A DNA stretch of 64,000 nucleotides from Acidobacteria bacterium RIFCSPLOWO2_12_FULL_68_19 (lineage in GTDB: Bacteria > Acidobacteriota > Vicinamibacteria > Vicinamibacterales > UBA2999): assembly GCA_001767525.1 (NCBI GenBank), contig MELF01000015.1, forward strand, positions 1 to 64,000, given 5' to 3'. The position numbers and the translations under genes are program-made. Numbering within the stretch: the first letter of the stretch is position 1; every line of letters begins with the position of its first letter. Positions 40,184 to 64,000 of this stretch are shown here, one piece after another. Below the pieces are notes generated by a model that was not told the origin of the DNA, did not search any database, and saw nothing but the letters and a program-made list of their open reading frames with translations.

Positions 40184-42331
40184 CTACTTGACCTCGAAGA
40201 GCACCTCGCGGCGCGCGGCGTGGTTCCCCATCGTCGCGACCGCCTCGACCCGCAGCAGGTACATCCCCGGCTTCAGGTCGCGCAGCGGGTAGTCGGTGGT
40301 GAACCCGTGCCCCTGGCCGCGGCGCTCGACCGCGCGGCTGTCGCGCGCTTGCACGATGACGCGCCCGTCCCGGGCGTCCTGGATCGTGCTCGTGTAGTTG
40401 ATGCTGTGTGTCTGATCGCTGGAGTTGTCATAGACCTCCGCGAACCAGGTCACCGTCTCCGCCGGCGCAAACGTCCGCGTCGCCACCGGCGGCGCCGGCA
40501 GCAGCCCGTTCCAGTCGGTCTCGGTGCTGCCGGTCGGCACTCCGGCCGCCGCCGATGAAGTGAGGAAGAGGCCGCTCATGGAAAACGGCGTCTTCGCGTA
40601 GTCGGGCACCTCGATGTCGTACGGGAGCGTGCCGACCGCTCCGCCGGTCGCCTCCTGGGCGCCAATCCGGATCTGGTAGCGTCCGGGCGGCAGCAGCACC
40701 TGCGAAATCAACCGGACGCCGCTCCGGTCGACGCGCGCGCGCGTGTCCGGCAGCAGGTTCAAGTTGAACGTCTGGCGGTCGCCGCCCTGGACGCGGGCGC
40801 GTTCGTCCGCCGCCACGATCGACACCTCGAGCGCTTCGACGAACCGGCCGTTGCGTTCCTGATACTTCAGGCCCGCCCCGTCGATTTCCACCGACACGAG
40901 CAACTGCCCCTTGTTGTCGGCGCTCCGCAGCGGTCCGGCGAAGGCGCGAATCGGGAGCTCGCCAATCGGCACGGGCTTGCTCAGCGCGGCCCGCAGCGCG
41001 GGCGAGGTCCCCGCTTTGACGTCCGCCTCGCTCGCGCGCGCGGTCGCCCGTGTGTCGGGCGGCAGGTACCCCTTGCGGGCGCGCACGTCCAGACCCGGCC
41101 GCTTCAGCTTCACCTCGATGTTCAGGAAGCGGTTGCGCGACCATTTCGACGAATCGCTGTAGTAGCCGAGCAGGTAATAGCGGCTGTTGTCGAGCACAAT
41201 CCGGCCGAGGCCGCCGGCCAGATCGCCGGAATTCACGATGGCGAGCCCGCCGGTCTCTTCCGACAGCGAGATCAGGCTCTCCTGCGCCAGCAGCAGCTCG
41301 CGCAGCGCCCCGCGGAAGTTGCCGTACTCGAGCTGCGGATAGTCCGAGCGTCCGCTGATCTCGATCATCTCGGGAAACTGGCTCATGCCACGCGGGTCGA
41401 TGCCGTAGACGTTGACGTTGGCCCGCTGCGCCGCGGCAATCGCCTCGCGCGCCTCGGTGATGATCAGGTCGCTGTTGCGGCTGATCCAGAACGGCTGGTA
41501 GATGTCGTAGTCGAACCCCTCGCTGAAGAGCAGCAGCGCCTTGCGGCGGCCCTGGACGTCGGCCAGCCAGCGCGACACGTTCTCGACCGCGTCGAACGCG
41601 CGGCGCGCGTTGAAGGCACGCTGCTCGTCGTTGGGATCGCGCACCGACTGCGCCCGCTGCAGCCCTTCGACCGACCGATTCCCCTGCCCAGTCTCGTCGG
41701 CGTTCGCCGAATCGAATCCCGACTCCCGGAGGTGAATCGCGAGCCGCTCCTGGCCCGCCGACGGGAGCTTCAGCCCCTGCAGCCGGTCGATGGCGGCCTT
41801 CAGGAACTGCCGGTTGCCGGTCAGCTCCTGGCCCCACTCCTGCCGGCCGCTCGTGAACACCACCGCGGCAAGGTCGTTGACGCCGAGGTACTCGTCGATG
41901 AAGCGCTTGGCGATCTCGCGGACGTTGTTGGTGCGCGTGACGTAGGTATGCAGATCGTCGAGCAGGAGGATGTAGATGCGCCCGTCGAAGTTGCGCGTCG
42001 TGGCGCGCACGTCGGGTTCGATGGGCGCCGCCGCCCTGGCCGGCACGAACGGCCGCTCGATCGGAACGTTGACCAGCGCGAACACCGTCGGCGACTGCAG
42101 CCGGCCGTCCTCGTAGACCTCGAAATCCGCCTGCGTCAGGTCGCCGGCGAACGCGCCCGTCTTCCGGTCGGTGACGATCGCGTGCACCTCGACGAAGTTC
42201 GTCTCGGCCCTGAAGGTGACCGACGGCTGCTGGTTGGCCGGGGCGGGCTGGCTCGGCTGCGCCTGCTGCGCGGTCCCGAGCACGGCAGCCGACAGCACCA
42301 CCGACGAGATCAGGAACAGATAGCGGCGCAT
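40184..42331 (-). CDS. Secreted VWFA-related protein of acidobacterial type
   Basis: 715 residues. Signal peptide, then TFRAETNFVEVHAIVTDRKT and TQADFEVYEDGRLQ, a hallmark opening of the acidobacterial VWFA-related family (TIGR03436 from memory), followed by a von Willebrand A-like domain with FDGRIYILLLDDLHTYVTRT in place of a perfect DxSxS motif and AIAAAQRANVNVYGIDPRGM, and about 300 residues of beta-rich C-terminal region. Role unknown, probably protein interaction at the cell surface. A marker supporting assignment of the window to Acidobacteriota. Confidence 0.82.
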   Translation of the reverse strand: MRRYLFLISSVVLSAAVLGTAQQAQPSQPAPANQQPSVTFRAETNFVEVHAIVTDRKTGAFAGDLTQADFEVYEDGRLQSPTVFALVNVPIERPFVPARAAAPIEPDVRATTRNFDGRIYILLLDDLHTYVTRTNNVREIAKRFIDEYLGVNDLAAVVFTSGRQEWGQELTGNRQFLKAAIDRLQGLKLPSAGQERLAIHLRESGFDSANADETGQGNRSVEGLQRAQSVRDPNDEQRAFNARRAFDAVENVSRWLADVQGRRKALLLFSEGFDYDIYQPFWISRNSDLIITEAREAIAAAQRANVNVYGIDPRGMSQFPEMIEISGRSDYPQLEYGNFRGALRELLLAQESLISLSEETGGLAIVNSGDLAGGLGRIVLDNSRYYLLGYYSDSSKWSRNRFLNIEVKLKRPGLDVRARKGYLPPDTRATARASEADVKAGTSPALRAALSKPVPIGELPIRAFAGPLRSADNKGQLLVSVEIDGAGLKYQERNGRFVEALEVSIVAADERARVQGGDRQTFNLNLLPDTRARVDRSGVRLISQVLLPPGRYQIRIGAQEATGGAVGTLPYDIEVPDYAKTPFSMSGLFLTSSAAAGVPTGSTETDWNGLLPAPPVATRTFAPAETVTWFAEVYDNSSDQTHSINYTSTIQDARDGRVIVQARDSRAVERRGQGHGFTTDYPLRDLKPGMYLLRVEAVATMGNHAARREVLFEVK

Positions 42332-56659: not shown

Positions 56660-58576
56660 TTACCGCGTATTCCGTGCCGACTGCACCGGCCTGGCGACGC
56701 GGAACGGATACCCCGGCGGATCGTTCAGGTAGTACGCCCCGAGCGTGGTGATCCGGTCCATGTCCGGGTACATCACGCTGATCGCCGGCGCGTTGACGCT
56801 CCCGCGCGGCGAATACCAGATGGCGCCGTCCCTCGTGATCTGGATCTTGGGCGTGTCGGCGTCGAACTGCGGCTTCGGGTAGAAGGTGAACGTCCCGTCA
56901 CGCGGGTTGAACCTGCCGATGGCGGCCGTGCGGTCCGGCGCCGGCGAGTCGGCGAACCAGATATTGTCCTCGGCATCGGCGGCCACGTCGTACGGCTGCG
57001 CATCGTGCCACGGAATCGGGTACTCGGTGAACCGGCCCGTCGTCTGGTCCAGCTTCGCCAGCCTGCCTGACCGCTTGCCGGCGGCCCAGATGCCGGTCCA
57101 GATGTTGTTCCTCGAGTCGACGTTCAGACGGCGGATGTGTCCCGGATAGGTCGGCGGCGTGAACTCGGTCCACTGATTGGTCGTGGTATCGAACTTCGCG
57201 ATCTTGCCGCCGCTCCAGAGCGCCACCCAGATGTTGTCGTTGCGATCGGCCACGACACCGTACGGAATCGCGTGCGGCGTCGGAATGCGGAACACCGACA
57301 CCTTGTTGGCCGCACGGTCCCACTTGCTCAGCGCGCCGCCCATGATCCATCCGACATAGATGTTGCCCTTGGAGTCCATCGCCAGCGACTGCAGCCACTT
57401 GATGGAGTTGTGGACCGCGTTGTCGGGATCCATCGGGATGCGCTGCTCGAACTGCTCCGTCTTCGGATTGAATCCGAGCAGCCGCTTCATCGTCGACGGC
57501 TGCACGCCGGAATGCTCGGGCAGCCAGATCGTGCCATCGCGATCGACGAGCACTTCGTGGATGCCGTTCTTCGGATCCGGCAGCAGGAACGCCTTCTGCT
57601 CGCCGGTGCGCGGATCGAGCTTCACGAGGCGATGCGGATACCCGCGGTCCGTCAGCCAGACGTTGCCGTCGCGATCGAAACGCACGTCCTGCCCTACGCG
57701 CCGCCCGCGGTAGCCGATGTTGACGTATTCCGGCGCCTTGCTCCCCTGGCCGGCCGGGTCGGGAGGCAGGTAGTACTCGATGTACATCGCCTTGCCGAGC
57801 ACGGTCTCGTCGATCGGCGCCTCCCGGTCCGCCTTCACGGCACGCCGCCGGCTCCCGGACCCGAAGTTCTCGACCATGTAGGCCAGCAGGTTCGCGCGGT
57901 CCTGCCGCGAGAATGGAAAGACCGACGTGCGGGGCGACAGGAGTCCCTCCGCATAGGTCGCGCCGTCGCGTTCGGCCAGCGCTCTGCCGGCCATGTGATC
58001 GATGCGGGCGTTCCACACCGCCTCGCTCGCCGGCCTCGACGGCAGGAAGTTCTCTCCGTGGCAGACCATGCAGACCTGCTCCGCCACCGCCTTCCCCGGC
58101 CCGGGCGGATAGATCTGGTCGTAGGGTTCGACGCTGACGGAGCCGCCCGGACCCGCCGACTCGCCTTCGAGCGAGACGTCCGCGAGCGCCGCGTTGCCTT
58201 GCGCTCCCGCGGCGCGCAGCGACAACTGGAGCCGCGGGTTGTCTCCGGCCTTCAGTGCCACCTTCCGGACATCGGACCCCATCCCCTTGACCGAGGCGCT
58301 CACCTCGTAGTTGCCGGGGGCGAGCGCCACGGCTCGAAACTGTCCCGCATTGGTGAACACCATGTAGGTGATCAGCGTATCCACGTTGCGGAGGTAGACC
58401 TGGGCGGCCTTGAACGGGACGCCGGCCTCGACCGTGCCCGATACCCTCGCCATCCCCGACAGTGCTCCGCCCCTGGCGGCGGGCTGCTGGGCGGCAGCCG
58501 TGCCGGCCGTGGTAAGGGCCACGTAGAGGACAGCAAGGGTTCCCACAAGGATGCCGAACATCCTCCACACGCTCAT
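56660..58576 (-). CDS. Secreted cytochrome c/beta-propeller protein (Vgb-like)
   Basis: 638 residues. Signal peptide, beta-sandwich (about 40-125), a cytochrome-like domain with CMVCHGENFLPSRP (about 170) and a propeller resembling virginiamycin B lyase (RFDRDGNVWLTDRGYPHRLV, VVADRNDNIWVALWSGGKIA, DAEDNIWFADSP). Paralogue of 4082-6028, but with a standard CXXCH. Divergent from the selenoprotein gene at 58694; the 117 bases between carry both promoters. Substrate unknown. Confidence 0.75.
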   Translation of the reverse strand: MSVWRMFGILVGTLAVLYVALTTAGTAAAQQPAARGGALSGMARVSGTVEAGVPFKAAQVYLRNVDTLITYMVFTNAGQFRAVALAPGNYEVSASVKGMGSDVRKVALKAGDNPRLQLSLRAAGAQGNAALADVSLEGESAGPGGSVSVEPYDQIYPPGPGKAVAEQVCMVCHGENFLPSRPASEAVWNARIDHMAGRALAERDGATYAEGLLSPRTSVFPFSRQDRANLLAYMVENFGSGSRRRAVKADREAPIDETVLGKAMYIEYYLPPDPAGQGSKAPEYVNIGYRGRRVGQDVRFDRDGNVWLTDRGYPHRLVKLDPRTGEQKAFLLPDPKNGIHEVLVDRDGTIWLPEHSGVQPSTMKRLLGFNPKTEQFEQRIPMDPDNAVHNSIKWLQSLAMDSKGNIYVGWIMGGALSKWDRAANKVSVFRIPTPHAIPYGVVADRNDNIWVALWSGGKIAKFDTTTNQWTEFTPPTYPGHIRRLNVDSRNNIWTGIWAAGKRSGRLAKLDQTTGRFTEYPIPWHDAQPYDVAADAEDNIWFADSPAPDRTAAIGRFNPRDGTFTFYPKPQFDADTPKIQITRDGAIWYSPRGSVNAPAISVMYPDMDRITTLGAYYLNDPPGYPFRVARPVQSARNTR

Positions 58577-58693
58577 AGCCACCCCCTTCACCGGCGCCGA
58601 CCCCAATCGCCGCTCCCCTGCCGAATCGGAGTGGATTGTAGCGCCGGCGACGAAGGATTCACAGGACCGGGACAGAAGGCGTATGCTGTGCCC

Positions 58694-59842
58694 ATGAAAT
58701 GTCTTCTGTCGGGCGCGGTGGCGCTCTCGCTCGCGGCCGCGTTCACCGTGCCGGTGGCCGGACAGGGTGCGCCCCAGGGGCGGCAGCGCATCGACGTCTC
58801 GAAGCTCGGGCCCCAGGTGGGCGAGCGGGTTCCCGACTTCAGCCTGCCGGACCAGGCGGGGCGCGTCCGCAACCTGCAGTCGATCATGGGGCCGCGCGGC
58901 GCGATGATCGTCTTCTATCGCTCGGCGGACTGGTGACCGTTCTGCCGCACGCAGCTCGTGGAGCTGCAAGGACGCGTCGAGGAGCTTCGCAGCAACGGCC
59001 TCGGGCTCGTGGGAGTGAGCTACGACTCGCAGCAGATCCTGGCCGACTTCACCAAGCGTCACAGCATCGCCTTTCCGCTGCTGTCCGACGCCGGCTCGGC
59101 GACGATCCGCCGCTACGGCATCCTCAACACGGTAGTAGAGGAAGCGCTCGGGCCGAACGGGAAGGATCCGGCCGTCCGCGCCGACCTCGCGAGGTATGCG
59201 ACGGTCAACGAGCCCAGCGAGCGTCAGCGCGGCATTCCTTTCCCGGGGACGTTCATCGTCGACCGGCAGGGGCGGGTGACCTCACGCTTCTTCGAGGACT
59301 ACTACTGGGAGCGGAATACCGTCTCGAACCTGCTGCTGCGGCTCGGCGCCGGCACCCCGCCGGTGCAGGCGACGCAGGTCGCGACCGATCACCTGGAGCT
59401 TCGAACCTACCCGAGCGACGCCTCGGTATCGCTCGGGACGCGCTTCACGATCGCGCTCGACATCACCCCCAAGCGCGGCATGCACGTCTACGCGCCAGGG
59501 GCGTCGAACTACCGGGTGATCTCGCTCACGGTGAACCCGCAGTCCCACGTGCGGACCTCGCCGCTGCGGTACCCGGCGTCGGAGGTCTACCACTTCGTGC
59601 CGCTGAACGAGCGCGTCCCGGTATTCCAGAAGCCGTTCACGCTGCTCGTGGACGTGGCGGCCGAAGCGACCGCGGAGGCGCGCAAGGCGCTCGCCGGCAG
59701 GACCGAACTGGTGATCTCGGGCACGCTGGAGTACCAGGCGTGCGACGACAAGATCTGCTACAACCCCGTGTCGCTGCCGCTGACGTGGAAGGTGGCCATG
59801 CACGGGCTGGTGCCGGGGGCGCCCCAGCCGCCTCAGCAATAA
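58694..59842 (+). CDS. Selenocysteine-containing redoxin with DsbD-alpha-like C-terminal domain
   Basis: 382 residues read through an in-frame UGA at 58934-58936 as selenocysteine 81. N-terminal signal peptide, then an AhpC/TSA-like redoxin domain: VGERVPDFSLPDQAGRVRNL and YRSADW-U-PFCRTQLVELQ, where homologues have Cys at the UGA, giving a UxxC redox pair with Cys84. The frame continues uninterrupted with LVGVSYDSQQILADFTKRHS and PFPGTFIVDRQGRVTSRFFE. The C-terminal part (about 230-375) resembles the DsbD N-terminal disulfide domain with Cys350 and Cys355 (YQACDDKICY). A 7-bp stem (58951-58967) sits at the place of a bacterial SECIS. tRNA-Sec and selABD lie directly downstream. Confidence 0.85.
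58951..58967 (+). promoter_or_regulatory. Bacterial SECIS hairpin candidate
   Basis: GCAGCTC-GTG-GAGCTGC: perfect 7-bp stem with a GUG loop whose apex lies 22-24 bases after the UGA at 58934-58936. Bacterial SECIS elements are short stem-loops in the coding sequence just downstream of the Sec UGA, with a G in the apical loop, recognised by SelB. Confidence 0.7.
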
Positions 59843-59851
59843 CGCGAAGGC

Positions 59852-59946
59852 TGGCGGAGAAGGGAGGGAGTCGAACCCTCCAGGGTCCTTACGGACCCCA
59901 GACTGGTTTTGAAGACCAGCGGCGCCACCGGGCACCTTCCTTCTCC
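59852..59946 (-). tRNA. selC: tRNA-Sec(UCA)
   Basis: Minus-strand tRNA with an 8-bp acceptor stem GGAGAAGG/CCTTCTCC (59939-59946 and 59856-59863), T stem GAGGG/CCCTC, a long variable arm with stem GGGTCC/GGACCC and loop GTAA, anticodon loop CTTCAAA giving UCA, discriminator G and encoded CCA (59852-59854). The 8+5 acceptor/T arrangement and UCA anticodon are specific to selenocysteine tRNA. It is convergent to the selenoprotein gene and opposite in strand to selA. Confidence 0.97.
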
Positions 59947-59987: not shown

Positions 59988-61391
59988 ATGACGCTGCGCG
60001 ACCTTCCCGCCGTGAGCCGCCTGCTCGCCCACCCGCGTACCGAGCGGCTGCTCGTCCGCTTCAATCGCGAGTACGTCGTCGACGGGTTCCGCGACATCCT
60101 CGACGAGCTTCGGCGCGCCATCGCCCAGGAGCGTGTCATCGACGCTGCGGCCCTCGAAGAAGATGCCATCCTCGACCGGCTCGAGGTGCGGCTGCGCGGG
60201 GCGGACGCGACCGGCCTCCAGCGCGTCGTGAACGCCACGGGCACGGTGCTGCACACCAACCTCGGACGCGCGCTGCTGGCACAACCCGCCGTCGCCGCTC
60301 TCGTCCAGGCGGCCACGCAGCCGGTCAATCTCGAATACGACCTCGCGCAGGGCGAGCGCGGACGCCGCGAACAGGCGATCGAGGACCTCCTGATGGACCT
60401 CACGGGCGCCGAGGCCGCCACGGTCGTCAACAACAACGCCGCCGCCGTGCTGCTCGTGCTGAATACCCTCGCAAGCGGCAAGGAAGTGATCGTGTCACGG
60501 GGCGAGTTGATCGAGATCGGCGGGGCGTTCCGGATTCCCGAGATCATGGCCAGGAGCGGCGCGATCCTGAAGGAAGTGGGCACGACCAACCGGACGCACC
60601 CCGCCGACTACGAGAATGCGATCACCGAACGGACCGCGCTGCTGCTGAAGGTGCACACGAGCAACTACCGGATCGTTGGCTTCGTGGCGGAGGTCGGGCT
60701 GCCCGACCTCGTCGCCATCGGTCGAGCCCACGGCCTTCCCGTCGTCGAGGACCTCGGGAGCGGCGCGCTCGTCGACTTGAGCCGCCACCAGCTGCCGAAA
60801 GAACCGGTCGTCGCCGAACGCGTGGCGCTCGGGCCAGACCTGGTCACCTTCAGCGGCGACAAGGTGCTCGGCGGACCGCAGGCCGGCCTCATCGTCGGGA
60901 AGGCCGACCGGGTGCGGGCGATCGCCGCCAACCCGCTGCATCGGGCCGTGCGGTGCGACAAGCTCACCATCGCCGCGCTCGAGGCGACGCTCCGCCTCTA
61001 CCGCGAGTCGGCATGCATCGTCCAGGACATCCCCGTGCTCAACGCGATCACCAGACCGCTCGCCGAGATCCAGGAAACGGCCGAACGGGCGCTTCCGGCC
61101 CTGCGCTCGGCGCTTGGACCCGGCTTTCGCGTCTCGGTGCAGGACTCCACCTCTCAGATCGGGAGCGGCGCGCTGCCCACGGAGGAAGTTCCCACGAAGG
61201 TGATCGCCATCGAGCATGATTTCCTCGGCGCCCACCGGATCGCGGGACGCTTCCGCCAGGCCCGTCCTCCGATCATCGGCCGCGTCAGCGACGACTGGTT
61301 CCTCCTGGACGTCCGCCTGATCATTGACCCGCTCGATCTGGTGCCGAACTGGGCCGACGAGCTCGACGGACCCGCCGGACCGCGGTCGTAA
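59988..61391 (+). CDS. selA: L-seryl-tRNA(Sec) selenium transferase
   Basis: 467 residues, full length for SelA. PLP-dependent enzyme that converts Ser-tRNA(Sec) to Sec-tRNA(Sec) using selenophosphate. Visible are [51 protein letters not shown], the aspartate of [12 protein letters not shown] and the PLP lysine in [14 protein letters not shown] (about residue 292). Followed after 5 bases by selB. The upstream 40 bases separate it from the 5' end of tRNA-Sec on the opposite strand. Confidence 0.95.
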
Positions 61392-61396
61392 CGTCG

Positions 61397-63403
61397 ATGC
61401 CGTTCATCATCGGCACCGCCGGCCACATCGACCACGGCAAGACCAGCCTGGTCAAGGCGCTGACCGGTGAAGACACCGATCGGCTGAAGGAGGAGAAGGA
61501 GCGGGGTATTTCCATCGAGCTCGGCTTCGCTCACCTCGACCTGCCGGACCTCACGCGCGCCGGCGTCATCGACGTGCCCGGCCACGAGCGTTTCATCCGC
61601 ACGATGGTGGCGGGATCGCACGGCGTCGATCTGGTCCTCTTCACCGTGGCAGCCGACGACGGCGTGATGCCGCAGACGATCGAGCACCTCGAAATCCTGC
61701 ACCTGCTCGGCGTCAAGCGCGGGATTTTCGTGCTCACCAAAGTCGATCTCGCCACGCCCGCCCGCGCCTCTGACGTGGCGAGCGAGATCGCCCGCCTCGC
61801 CGCCGGCACCTCGCTCGACGGCTCGCCGGTCGTGCCATTCTCCTTCGTCACGGGCGAGGGGCGCGGCCGCCTGCTCGCCGCAATCGCCGAGGGCCTCACC
61901 CACATCGATCGGCGTCGGCCCGCCGGATACTTCCGCGTTCCGGTGGACCGCGCATTCGTGCTGCGCGGCCATGGCCTGGTCGTGACCGGCACGGCGCTCC
62001 AGGGCGAGGTCCGGGCCGGAGACCGTTTGCGGTGCCTGCCGGGCAACGAGCTCTTCCGCGTTCGTTCCGTTCAGGTGCATGGCGAGCCGGTGGACCGCGC
62101 GACATGGGGCCAACGGATCGCCATCAACCTGGCCGGGCACGAGCGGCCGACAATCGAGAGAGGCCACGTCCTCTGCGATGAGCGGCTGACGATGATGTCG
62201 GATCGGTTCGACGCGCTGGTCGAGGTGCGGCCCACCGCGCCCGTCCCTGTGCGAAATCACCAGCGCGTCCGGGTGCACATGGGAACCGCCGAGCGGCTCG
62301 GCAAGCTGGTGATCCTGGCGACGAGCCACGGGAACGCGGAGATTCCAGGGCCAGCCGAGTATGGCTCCATACCTCCGCGCCTCCGTGGCCCGGATCAGAT
62401 CGCGCCCGGGCAGTCGGCGTTTTGCCAGGTGGCGATCGGAGAACCTCTTCTCGCCTTGCGCGGCGACCGGTTCATCGTGCGTGACGAGACGGCACAGCGG
62501 ACACTCGGCGGCGGCATCGTCCTCAATCCGTGGCCCGATACACACCGGCGCGGCGACCCGGGGCTCGACGCCAGGCTCCGGGCGTTGTGCACCGACGACT
62601 ACGGTGCGCTCGCGGAGCAGTTCCTGGATGAGCGGCCCGAGTTCGCGACAGAAGCCGCGCCGCTCTGGCACTTCCTGAACCTGCGCCTGGAGGACGCGCT
62701 CGAGCACGCCGCTCGCCGGACGGCGATTCGCGTCGTGTCGCCGGAGGAACAGCTCTTCACGACGGAGCGGAAGTGGGCTTTACTGAAGGCCGCGCTCGTG
62801 GACGGACTGCGAGACTTCCACCGCGCGCACCCGCTCGAGGCGGGCGGGGACATGGAAGCGCTGCGGGAGAAGCTGCGGGCGCCCGTGTCACCCCGGGCGT
62901 TCCGCGCCTTCGTGGCGCAGCTCGAGGCGGAACGCGTCGTGATGCGCCAGGGCAACCTGCTGCGCCTGCCCGAGCACCGCGTCGCGCTCCGATCCGACGA
63001 CCAGGCGGCGGTGGATCGGATTCACGACCTGCTCGCCCGCTCCCCGCTGGCGCCGCCTGACCTGCGGCAGATTGCCGCCGACACCGGGCTCGACCGCGCA
63101 CGGCTCGCGCAGCTGATGCGCGTCCTCGAGCGCGATCGGCTCGTCGTGCGCGCCGGCGGCGACCTCTATTTCCTGCGGGAGAGCATCGACAGCGTCGTGC
63201 GGGGCGTGCGCGAGCAGTTTTCCGAGACCGACGAGATCACGCCTGCGATGTTCCGGGATCGCTTCAACACGACGAGAAAGTACGCTATTCCACTGCTGGA
63301 GTACCTGGACCGCGAAGGGGTGACGGTCCGGATTGGCGACACGAGACGGCTCAGACAATGGTCAAAATCACCGGCCGCAAGCGAACGAAGCTCCTCGGGC
63401 TGA
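61397..63403 (+). CDS. selB: Selenocysteine-specific elongation factor
   Basis: 668 residues. GTPase domain with P-loop [28 protein letters not shown] (the G2 region of SelB, with the SelB-type GISIELGFA), [12 protein letters not shown] and LTKVDLA; EF-Tu-like domains II-III; then C-terminal winged helices (residues about 380-650) that bind the SECIS ([25 protein letters not shown]). It delivers Sec-tRNA(Sec) to UGA codons flagged by a SECIS. It overlaps the start of selD by 46 bases. Confidence 0.95.
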
Positions 63404-64000
63404 CGCAGCAGGTGGCGGCGGCGGGTTGAGCGGCCAAGCTCGGCCCGGCCGACCTGCTGCACGTGCTGCACAGCCTCCCGCCGTTCCACCATCCGAACCT
63501 CATCGTCGGCACGGAAACGTTCGACGACGCGGGCGTCTTCCGCCTCCGGGACGACCTGGCGATCGTCAACACCGTCGATTTCTTCACGCCGATCGTCGAC
63601 GACCCGTACACCTTCGGGCAGATTGCCGCGGCCAATGCATTGAGCGACGTCTACGCGATGGGCGGCGAACCGGCCACCGCGCTCAACATCGTCGGGTTTC
63701 CCCGGGGAACGCTGGATCTGGAGGTCCTGACCGACATCATCCGGGGCGGATCGGAGCGGGTCCGAGCTGCCGGGGCGGTCGTCATCGGCGGCCACAGCAT
63801 CATCGACGAGGAGCTCAAGTACGGGATGGCGGTCACCGGCGTCATCCACCCCGATCGGGTCGTTCGCAACGTCGGCGTCCAGATCGGCGACGCGCTCGTG
63901 CTCACCAAGCCGCTCGGCACCGGCATCATCACGACCGGACTCAAGCGGCGCAAGGCGTCGGCGGCGAGCCTCCGCGCCGCGGTCCGCTCGATGGTACGGC
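63358..64000 (+). CDS. selD: Selenophosphate synthetase, Sec-containing, partial
   Basis: SelD makes selenophosphate from selenide and ATP. From ATG at 63358 the frame reads [21 protein letters not shown], then an in-frame UGA at 63427-63429 (residue 24), then AAKLGPADLLHVLHSLP. That UGA is the position of the catalytic Cys or Sec of SelD. Downstream are VNTVDFFTPIVDDPYTFGQI, ANALSDVYAMGGEPATALNI and GGHSIIDEELKYGMAVTGVI, typical of SelD. A short hairpin follows the UGA at 63440-63452. The gene leaves the window at its end. A start before the UGA and overlap with selB are consistent with co-translation. Confidence 0.92.
63440..63452 (+). promoter_or_regulatory. Candidate SECIS hairpin in selD
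   Basis: TCGGC-CCG-GCCGA forms a 5-bp stem with its apex 16-18 bases after the selD UGA (63427-63429). This is the right distance for a bacterial SECIS but the stem is short and the region is GC-rich, so a chance hairpin is possible. Confidence 0.4.

Follow-up and report, generated by a model that had tools for sequence, protein, structure and literature searches.

Thiol-disulfide oxidoreductases of the ResA/TlpA/CcmG type are natural clients of DsbD-alpha and CcdA; in Escherichia coli, electrons pass from DsbD-alpha to a CxxC acceptor, and DsbD-alpha hands electrons to several partners. Selenoproteins with related parts have also been described. The main text of a recent review (PMC13188914, 2026) lists 119 prokaryotic selenoprotein families, among them UxxC peroxiredoxin (Prx)-like and Redoxin selenoproteins as well as TsoB, which resembles a rhodanese/DsbD fusion. 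No fusion of a redoxin to DsbD_N was found in the parts of PMC13188914 covered here, whose main text has “DsbD” once, at TsoB, and, judged by titles and counts, none of the other papers retrieved for selenoproteins and DsbD seems relevant. UxxC redoxin selenoproteins are known, and the DsbD-alpha fusion was found in no catalogue searched, the search covering main texts.

The gene described here lies in a 64,000-nucleotide stretch of DNA (the window) from a soil/groundwater acidobacterium. With the UxxC Prx-like oxidoreductase/Redoxin selenoproteins (PF00578/PF08534; PMC13188914, its Table 1), the encoded protein shares the AhpC/TSA-Redoxin domain, the UxxC motif with selenocysteine (Sec) in first position and a SECIS-like element just downstream, whereas that table names no DsbD_N fusion and the present protein is putatively exported and has two domains and a second Cys pair. 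With ResA/TlpA/CcmG it shares probable export and an aligned W-C-x-x-C site and Pro, but it carries Sec for the first Cys, a fused putative donor domain and, ahead of the Pro, an AhpC/TSA-like insert about 35 residues long. The GOS study, in the part covered here, reported Prx-like selenoproteins fused to Cys-bearing domains, of which one has three Cys with a CxxC among them (PMC2398784); its “Prx-like 3/Unknown_3” and “Prx-like 2” fusions likewise join a UxxC Prx-like domain to a Cys-bearing domain, but Unknown_3 has three conserved Cys including CxxC and the present domain two in a CX4C spacing, a distinction drawn from the published description only. TsoB (NF045694; PMC13188914) is also a selenoprotein with a DsbD-like part, but, compared by name and motif only, it has a rhodanese partner and a UxxxxU motif with two Sec. 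The best NCBIfam match by E-value is the SelL-related redox protein model NF040769 (6.3e-14), which the protein falls outside, scoring 52 bits where the cut-off is 120. As no NCBIfam model reaches its own cut-off on this protein, annotation pipelines probably truncate the genes of this family at the UGA.

Gene Organization and Selenocysteine Machinery

The 382-residue frame runs from an ATG at 58694 to a TAA at 59840-59842 (Table 1). Its sole internal stop is the TGA at 58934-58936, which is codon 81 and has 80 codons 5' of it. Pfam assigns residues 42-196 to AhpC-TSA (E = 2.4e-27) and residues 247-358 to DsbD_N (E = 5e-9), and the full-length structure model has a pLDDT of 91.5 overall. The putative signal peptide consists of a short basic N-terminus, a hydrophobic core and then small residues, with low structure-model confidence in this region, and the protein is probably exported to the periplasm.

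Table 1. Coordinates in the window of the selenoprotein gene, its parts and the adjacent selenocysteine machinery.
Feature	Position	Strand	Basis
Selenoprotein CDS, AhpC/TSA redoxin plus DsbD-alpha-like domain, UGA read as Sec	58694..59842	+	Translation with TGA as U, Pfam, homologous loci
Putative signal peptide, about residues 1-24, MKCLLSGAVALSLAAAFTVPVAGQ	58694..58765	+	Read from sequence
Redoxin domain, residues 41-220, thioredoxin-like fold	58814..59353	+	Pfam, model, fold matches
UGA codon, Sec81, first residue of UxxC	58934..58936	+	Always Cys or Sec in homologues; ResA alignment
C84 codon, last residue of UxxC	58943-58945	+	ResA alignment
SECIS-like hairpin, 7-bp stem, GUG loop	58951..58967	+	MFE, conservation, paired changes
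Pro184 codon	59243..59245	+	Invariant in family alignment; on ResA Pro and AhpE catalytic Arg
DsbD-alpha-like domain, residues 225-372	59366..59809	+	Pfam DsbD_N, model, fold search
CDDKIC, putative redox pair	59741..59758	+	Cys350 59741-59743, Cys355 59756-59758; invariant
tRNA-Sec, anticodon UCA	59852..59946	-	ARAGORN; Rfam RF01852, 77.2 bits against gathering score 47
selA, L-seryl-tRNA(Sec) selenium transferase	59988..61391	+	TIGR00474, 585.6 bits against cut-off 267.9
selB, Sec-specific elongation factor	61397..63403	+	TIGR00475, 357.9 bits against cut-off 242
selD, 5' part, continuing past window end	63358..64000	+	TIGR00476, 390.5 bits against cut-off 125; one internal TGA

The genes for tRNA-Sec, SelA, SelB and SelD are all contiguous with the selenoprotein gene. 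The selD gene is itself a selenoprotein gene, with a UGA at 63427-63429 that places Sec in the motif GUAAK near the N terminus, and it continues in locus L093. On another contig of the same genome (C48, locus L200, about 40300-41950, minus strand), the gene of a molybdopterin enzyme that resembles formate dehydrogenase alpha also contains a UGA in frame, at QQSRI-U-HGPTVASL. Together with the redoxin and selD, this gives the host genome at least three likely selenoprotein genes. By clustering of open reading frames, selA, selB and selD stand beside a member of this family only in the window and in loci L001 and L002, and no recurrent partner gene was found beside members across the family. Upstream of the selenoprotein gene, a divergent neighbor (about 56663-58578, minus strand) encodes a Vgb_lyase-type beta-propeller and a carboxypeptidase-regulatory-like domain, with a CMVCH haem-type motif.

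Selenocysteine at UGA81

The facts of the window alone are no proof of recoding. At 67% G+C, another frame on the same strand stays open for 430 codons, which makes the open frame on either side of the UGA weak evidence by itself, and of the window's 1440 TGA triplets, 18 (1.25%) are followed by a SECIS-like perfect 7-bp hairpin. Long chance frames of this kind would also allow UGA81 to be an ordinary stop or the gene to have decayed, leaving an 80-residue stub and an unexpressed 3' part. The homologues make that reading highly improbable, because the UGA recurs in about 100 distinct copies with the sequence conserved on both sides, Cys takes the place of Sec mostly in genomes without selA, and the hairpin is kept. 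A base-calling error or a pseudogene at this codon was likewise ruled out, the UGA being common to so many distinct copies.

In a scan of 84,980 genomes, the codon aligned with codon 81 was UGA at 27 loci and UGC or UGU at 53, so that all 80 loci have Cys or Sec there; homologues with any other residue at this position, which would speak against Sec, were looked for in this set and none was found. A deeper set covering the site held 116 distinct copies, 100 with UGA and 16 with UGC/UGU. A tree of 113 members (97 Sec, 16 Cys), built after masking the site, requires at least six interchanges between Sec and Cys, at least five of them forced by well supported branches; the tree came from a quick search and has some long branches. 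Such repeated swaps within one architecture provide matched pairs for examining the benefit of Sec in an oxidising envelope. Of the 65 genomes that carry a Sec copy, 59 had a selA gene above its cut-off, vs one of eight Cys-only genomes (Fisher p = 7.8e-6, an optimistic value because the genomes are related). The Cys-only genomes belong to several genera, and most of the six Sec-bearing genomes without selA above the cut-off are incomplete assemblies. On these comparative grounds, the reading of UGA81 as Sec is beyond chance. Where two TGA triplets were listed, the second proved to be either the stop that ends the gene or a triplet past the CX4C region, and a second Sec was rejected; no Sec was seen within the DsbD-alpha Cys pair among the copies examined.

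The hairpin (GCAGCTC / GTG / GAGCTGC) has a perfect stem that starts 14 bases 3' of the UGA. The published bSECIS model describes a stem of 4-16 bp, a loop of 3-9 nt whose first two positions include a G, a distance of 16-37 nt from the UGA and an MFE of at most -7.5 kcal/mol, and the hairpin falls within every one of these ranges, with 7 bp, a 3-nt GUG loop that has G first, 21 nt between UGA and loop and -11.6 kcal/mol. Six or seven of the seven pairs are retained in 99 of 100 Sec genes vs 3 of 16 Cys genes, and the stem codons are near-fixed in the Sec genes (GAG in 98, CTG in 94, CTC or CTG in 100) but free in the Cys genes. One paired change in the stem, CAG..CTG to CAA..TTG, turns a G-C into an A-U pair and is synonymous on both sides, and a second turns G-C into C-G; this covariation amounts to only two or three independent tree events per pair, a number that does not allow a sign test. 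A G-G top pair occurs in 19 genes, leaving a 6-bp stem and a 5-nt loop. One Cys (TGC) homologue (L005, 6214-6280; the same gene as L111 and L127) has a perfect SECIS-like hairpin, and the intact structure suggests a recent replacement of Sec by Cys.

The initial annotation had read the UGA at 58934 as Sec, pointing to a 7-bp stem-loop with a GUG apex 14 bases past it and to Sec machinery next door. The codon-81 data, the swaps on the tree and the selA association bear out the first point, the stem-loop is present, fits the bSECIS model and is conserved in the Sec genes, and models confirm tRNA-Sec, selA, selB and the start of selD. The combined data support decoding of UGA81 by the products of the adjacent genes (SelA, SelB, tRNA-Sec and SelD), probably under the control of this hairpin.

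Active Site of the Redoxin Domain

The protein had initially been annotated as a UxxC redoxin whose Sec occupies the peroxidatic position. The first half of this description agrees with the Pfam AhpC-TSA match and with the alignment of W-U-P-F-C to the ResA-type W-C-x-x-C; the second half has to be revised. In alignments with the peroxiredoxins 2cx3, 5xbs and AhpE (5c04), U81 falls on or beside the Ser/Thr of TxxC and the peroxidatic Cys on C84. Where peroxiredoxins have PxxxT(S)xxC, the protein reads S77-A-D-W-U81-P-F-C84, with Ser77 for the Pro, Sec81 for the Thr/Ser and only the Cys kept. The catalytic Arg is also missing, since IANRGTF of AhpE aligns with IPFPGTF, a low-scoring stretch, and P184 takes the Arg column. 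The arrangement is accordingly not the TxxU of a Sec-peroxiredoxin.

In the alignment with ResA, U81 and C84 match both Cys of CxxC and P184 matches the Pro of PLPTTFLI (a stretch that is low-scoring alone), and P184 is invariant in the aligned family members. In this profile alignment, made with 3c71, 4nmu and 2h1b, the UxxC stands after a Trp and the thioredoxin-type Pro is present. The predicted fold is thioredoxin-like and of the AhpC/TSA type, as indicated by Pfam and by the fold neighbors of the model, AhpE and Bcp (VIA Z about 18), with ResA also retrieved by Foldseek; the curated ResA model NF002854 gives 42.6 bits against a cut-off of 170, below membership. Both sets of alignments and the fold matches together indicate a site of the thiol-disulfide oxidoreductase type in a protein of AhpC/TSA fold, and in this site, by alignment, Sec81 is the attacking N-terminal residue of UxxC. 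Such a site would favor disulfides over peroxides as substrate.

Selenols react fast with peroxides, and the protein could instead be mainly a periplasmic peroxidase in which Sec81 or Cys84 attacks peroxides and the DsbD-alpha-like domain recycles the site. AhpC-TSA is the top Pfam match, AhpE and Bcp are the best fold matches, and Cys84 occupies the peroxidatic column, but the broken PxxxT(S)xxC motif and the Pro in place of the catalytic Arg make this rather unlikely, as does the UxxC order, since the known Sec-peroxiredoxins of the review's main text have the order TxxU, in which Sec itself is the peroxidatic residue (PMC13188914).

DsbD-Alpha-Like Domain and Its Possible Partners

The C-terminal domain had been called DsbD-alpha-like with its own Cys pair, an assignment that the Pfam DsbD_N match, the fold search and the invariant Cys350 and Cys355 uphold. 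Modelled alone, the domain has a pLDDT of 93.8, and the eleven top rows of its fold search were all nDsbD or ScsB N-terminal domains (Z 10.3-12.3), followed by an unrelated fold at 8.7. The top matches include the complexes 1z5y (nDsbD-CcmG), 1jzd (DsbC-DsbD-alpha) and 1vrs (nDsbD-cDsbD), and a search of solved structures with the sequence of the domain alone gave no relevant match. As judged from the predicted model, this is a DsbD-alpha/ScsB-like domain with the Ig-like nDsbD fold. It shares this fold, a redox Cys pair and Pfam DsbD_N with the DsbD-alpha and ScsB N-terminal domains, but it lies C-terminal to a redoxin where theirs lie N-terminal to a membrane domain, its Cys spacing is CX4C, and the identity is 13-18%. 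Cys350 and Cys355, putatively the redox-active pair, are invariant in 29 aligned members, and CX4C is present in 104 of 106 members longer than 330 aa.

The fused domain is the single DsbD_N match in the host genome. The selenoprotein is not a full DsbD or ScsB, as it has 382 aa and no DsbD_TM match, and the DsbD_TM proteins of the genome, a free-standing 257-aa CcdA-like protein and a second one, sit on other contigs. The second (L095, 2401-5724, minus strand, contig C44) is a long frame with a cupredoxin-like region and possibly represents more than one gene. No cDsbD-like partner was found, the single Thioredoxin_7 match looking YyaL/DUF255-type, and the step from CcdA to the alpha domain is proposed from the presence of the genes.

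Relatives encode free-standing DsbD_N proteins without a redoxin (L194, 980-1651, minus strand, 223 aa; L195, 309-998, minus strand), which are close to the fused alpha domain and have signal-peptide-like starts, and the domain thus acts apart from the redoxin too. With DsbD-alpha serving several partners in general, these proteins would agree with a docking or substrate role, the Sec-redoxin holding the CX4C pair in either the reduced or the oxidised state and the domain then serving other envelope proteins. We consider this improbable, given that the UxxC and CX4C pairs are invariant together and that in E. coli the CxxC acceptor receives its electrons from the alpha domain.

Proposed Mechanism

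The account that we favor, and hold to be reasonably probable, is an exported UxxC thiol-disulfide oxidoreductase with Sec at UGA81, whose electron donor is fused in cis and recharged via a CcdA-type protein. Sec81 of W-U-P-F-C would attack a disulfide, or possibly a peroxide, as its oxidised substrate, and Cys84 would resolve the intermediate to a Sec81-Cys84 selenenylsulfide. The DsbD-alpha-like domain may then reduce this bond in cis through Cys350/Cys355, a step modelled on E. coli DsbD-alpha, which acts in trans on CcmG, DsbC and DsbG; in its complex with CcmG, that domain is bound to the first Cys of CxxC, which we take to be the counterpart of Sec81. Electrons from the cytoplasm would recharge the alpha domain by way of the CcdA-type membrane protein, whose gene lies elsewhere in the genome, and the net role would be that of a periplasmic thiol/selenol reductase carrying its own electron donor.

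The Sec coding, the conserved UxxC, the conserved CX4C and the predicted folds are the parts of this scheme that the sequence and model data support. A relay between the disulfide-exchange domain and the selenol had been suggested from the window; both of its redox sites are conserved, in keeping with the idea, and its operation is what we infer. As a natural fusion of DsbD-alpha with an acceptor, the protein makes the electron route testable within a single polypeptide.

Family Distribution

Within the sampled order the family is widespread: 98 of 149 genomes have a match at E <= 1e-30, in some cases only to the alpha domain. We regard as evenly balanced the wider proposal that Vicinamibacterales-type Acidobacteriota hold a large selenoprotein family, so far undescribed and with as many as four copies in one genome, that would form a self-contained periplasmic selenol relay, in which an alpha-domain donor serves UxxC in cis and is fed by CcdA without a complete DsbD. 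The nearest named relatives are from Acidobacteria MAGs, some titled Vicinamibacterales, the order to which the window probably belongs, and other matches are titled Gammaproteobacteria, Gemmatimonadetes or Planctomycetota, for which transfer and mis-binning are both possible. A distant Sec homologue titled Pseudomonadales (L051, from 6133 onward) has a C-terminal part without the CX4C pair. A diverged second clade (L183-L193) occurs in one family (f8) of the order, where all copies on the tree have UGA, and it brings the number of copies to as many as four per genome.
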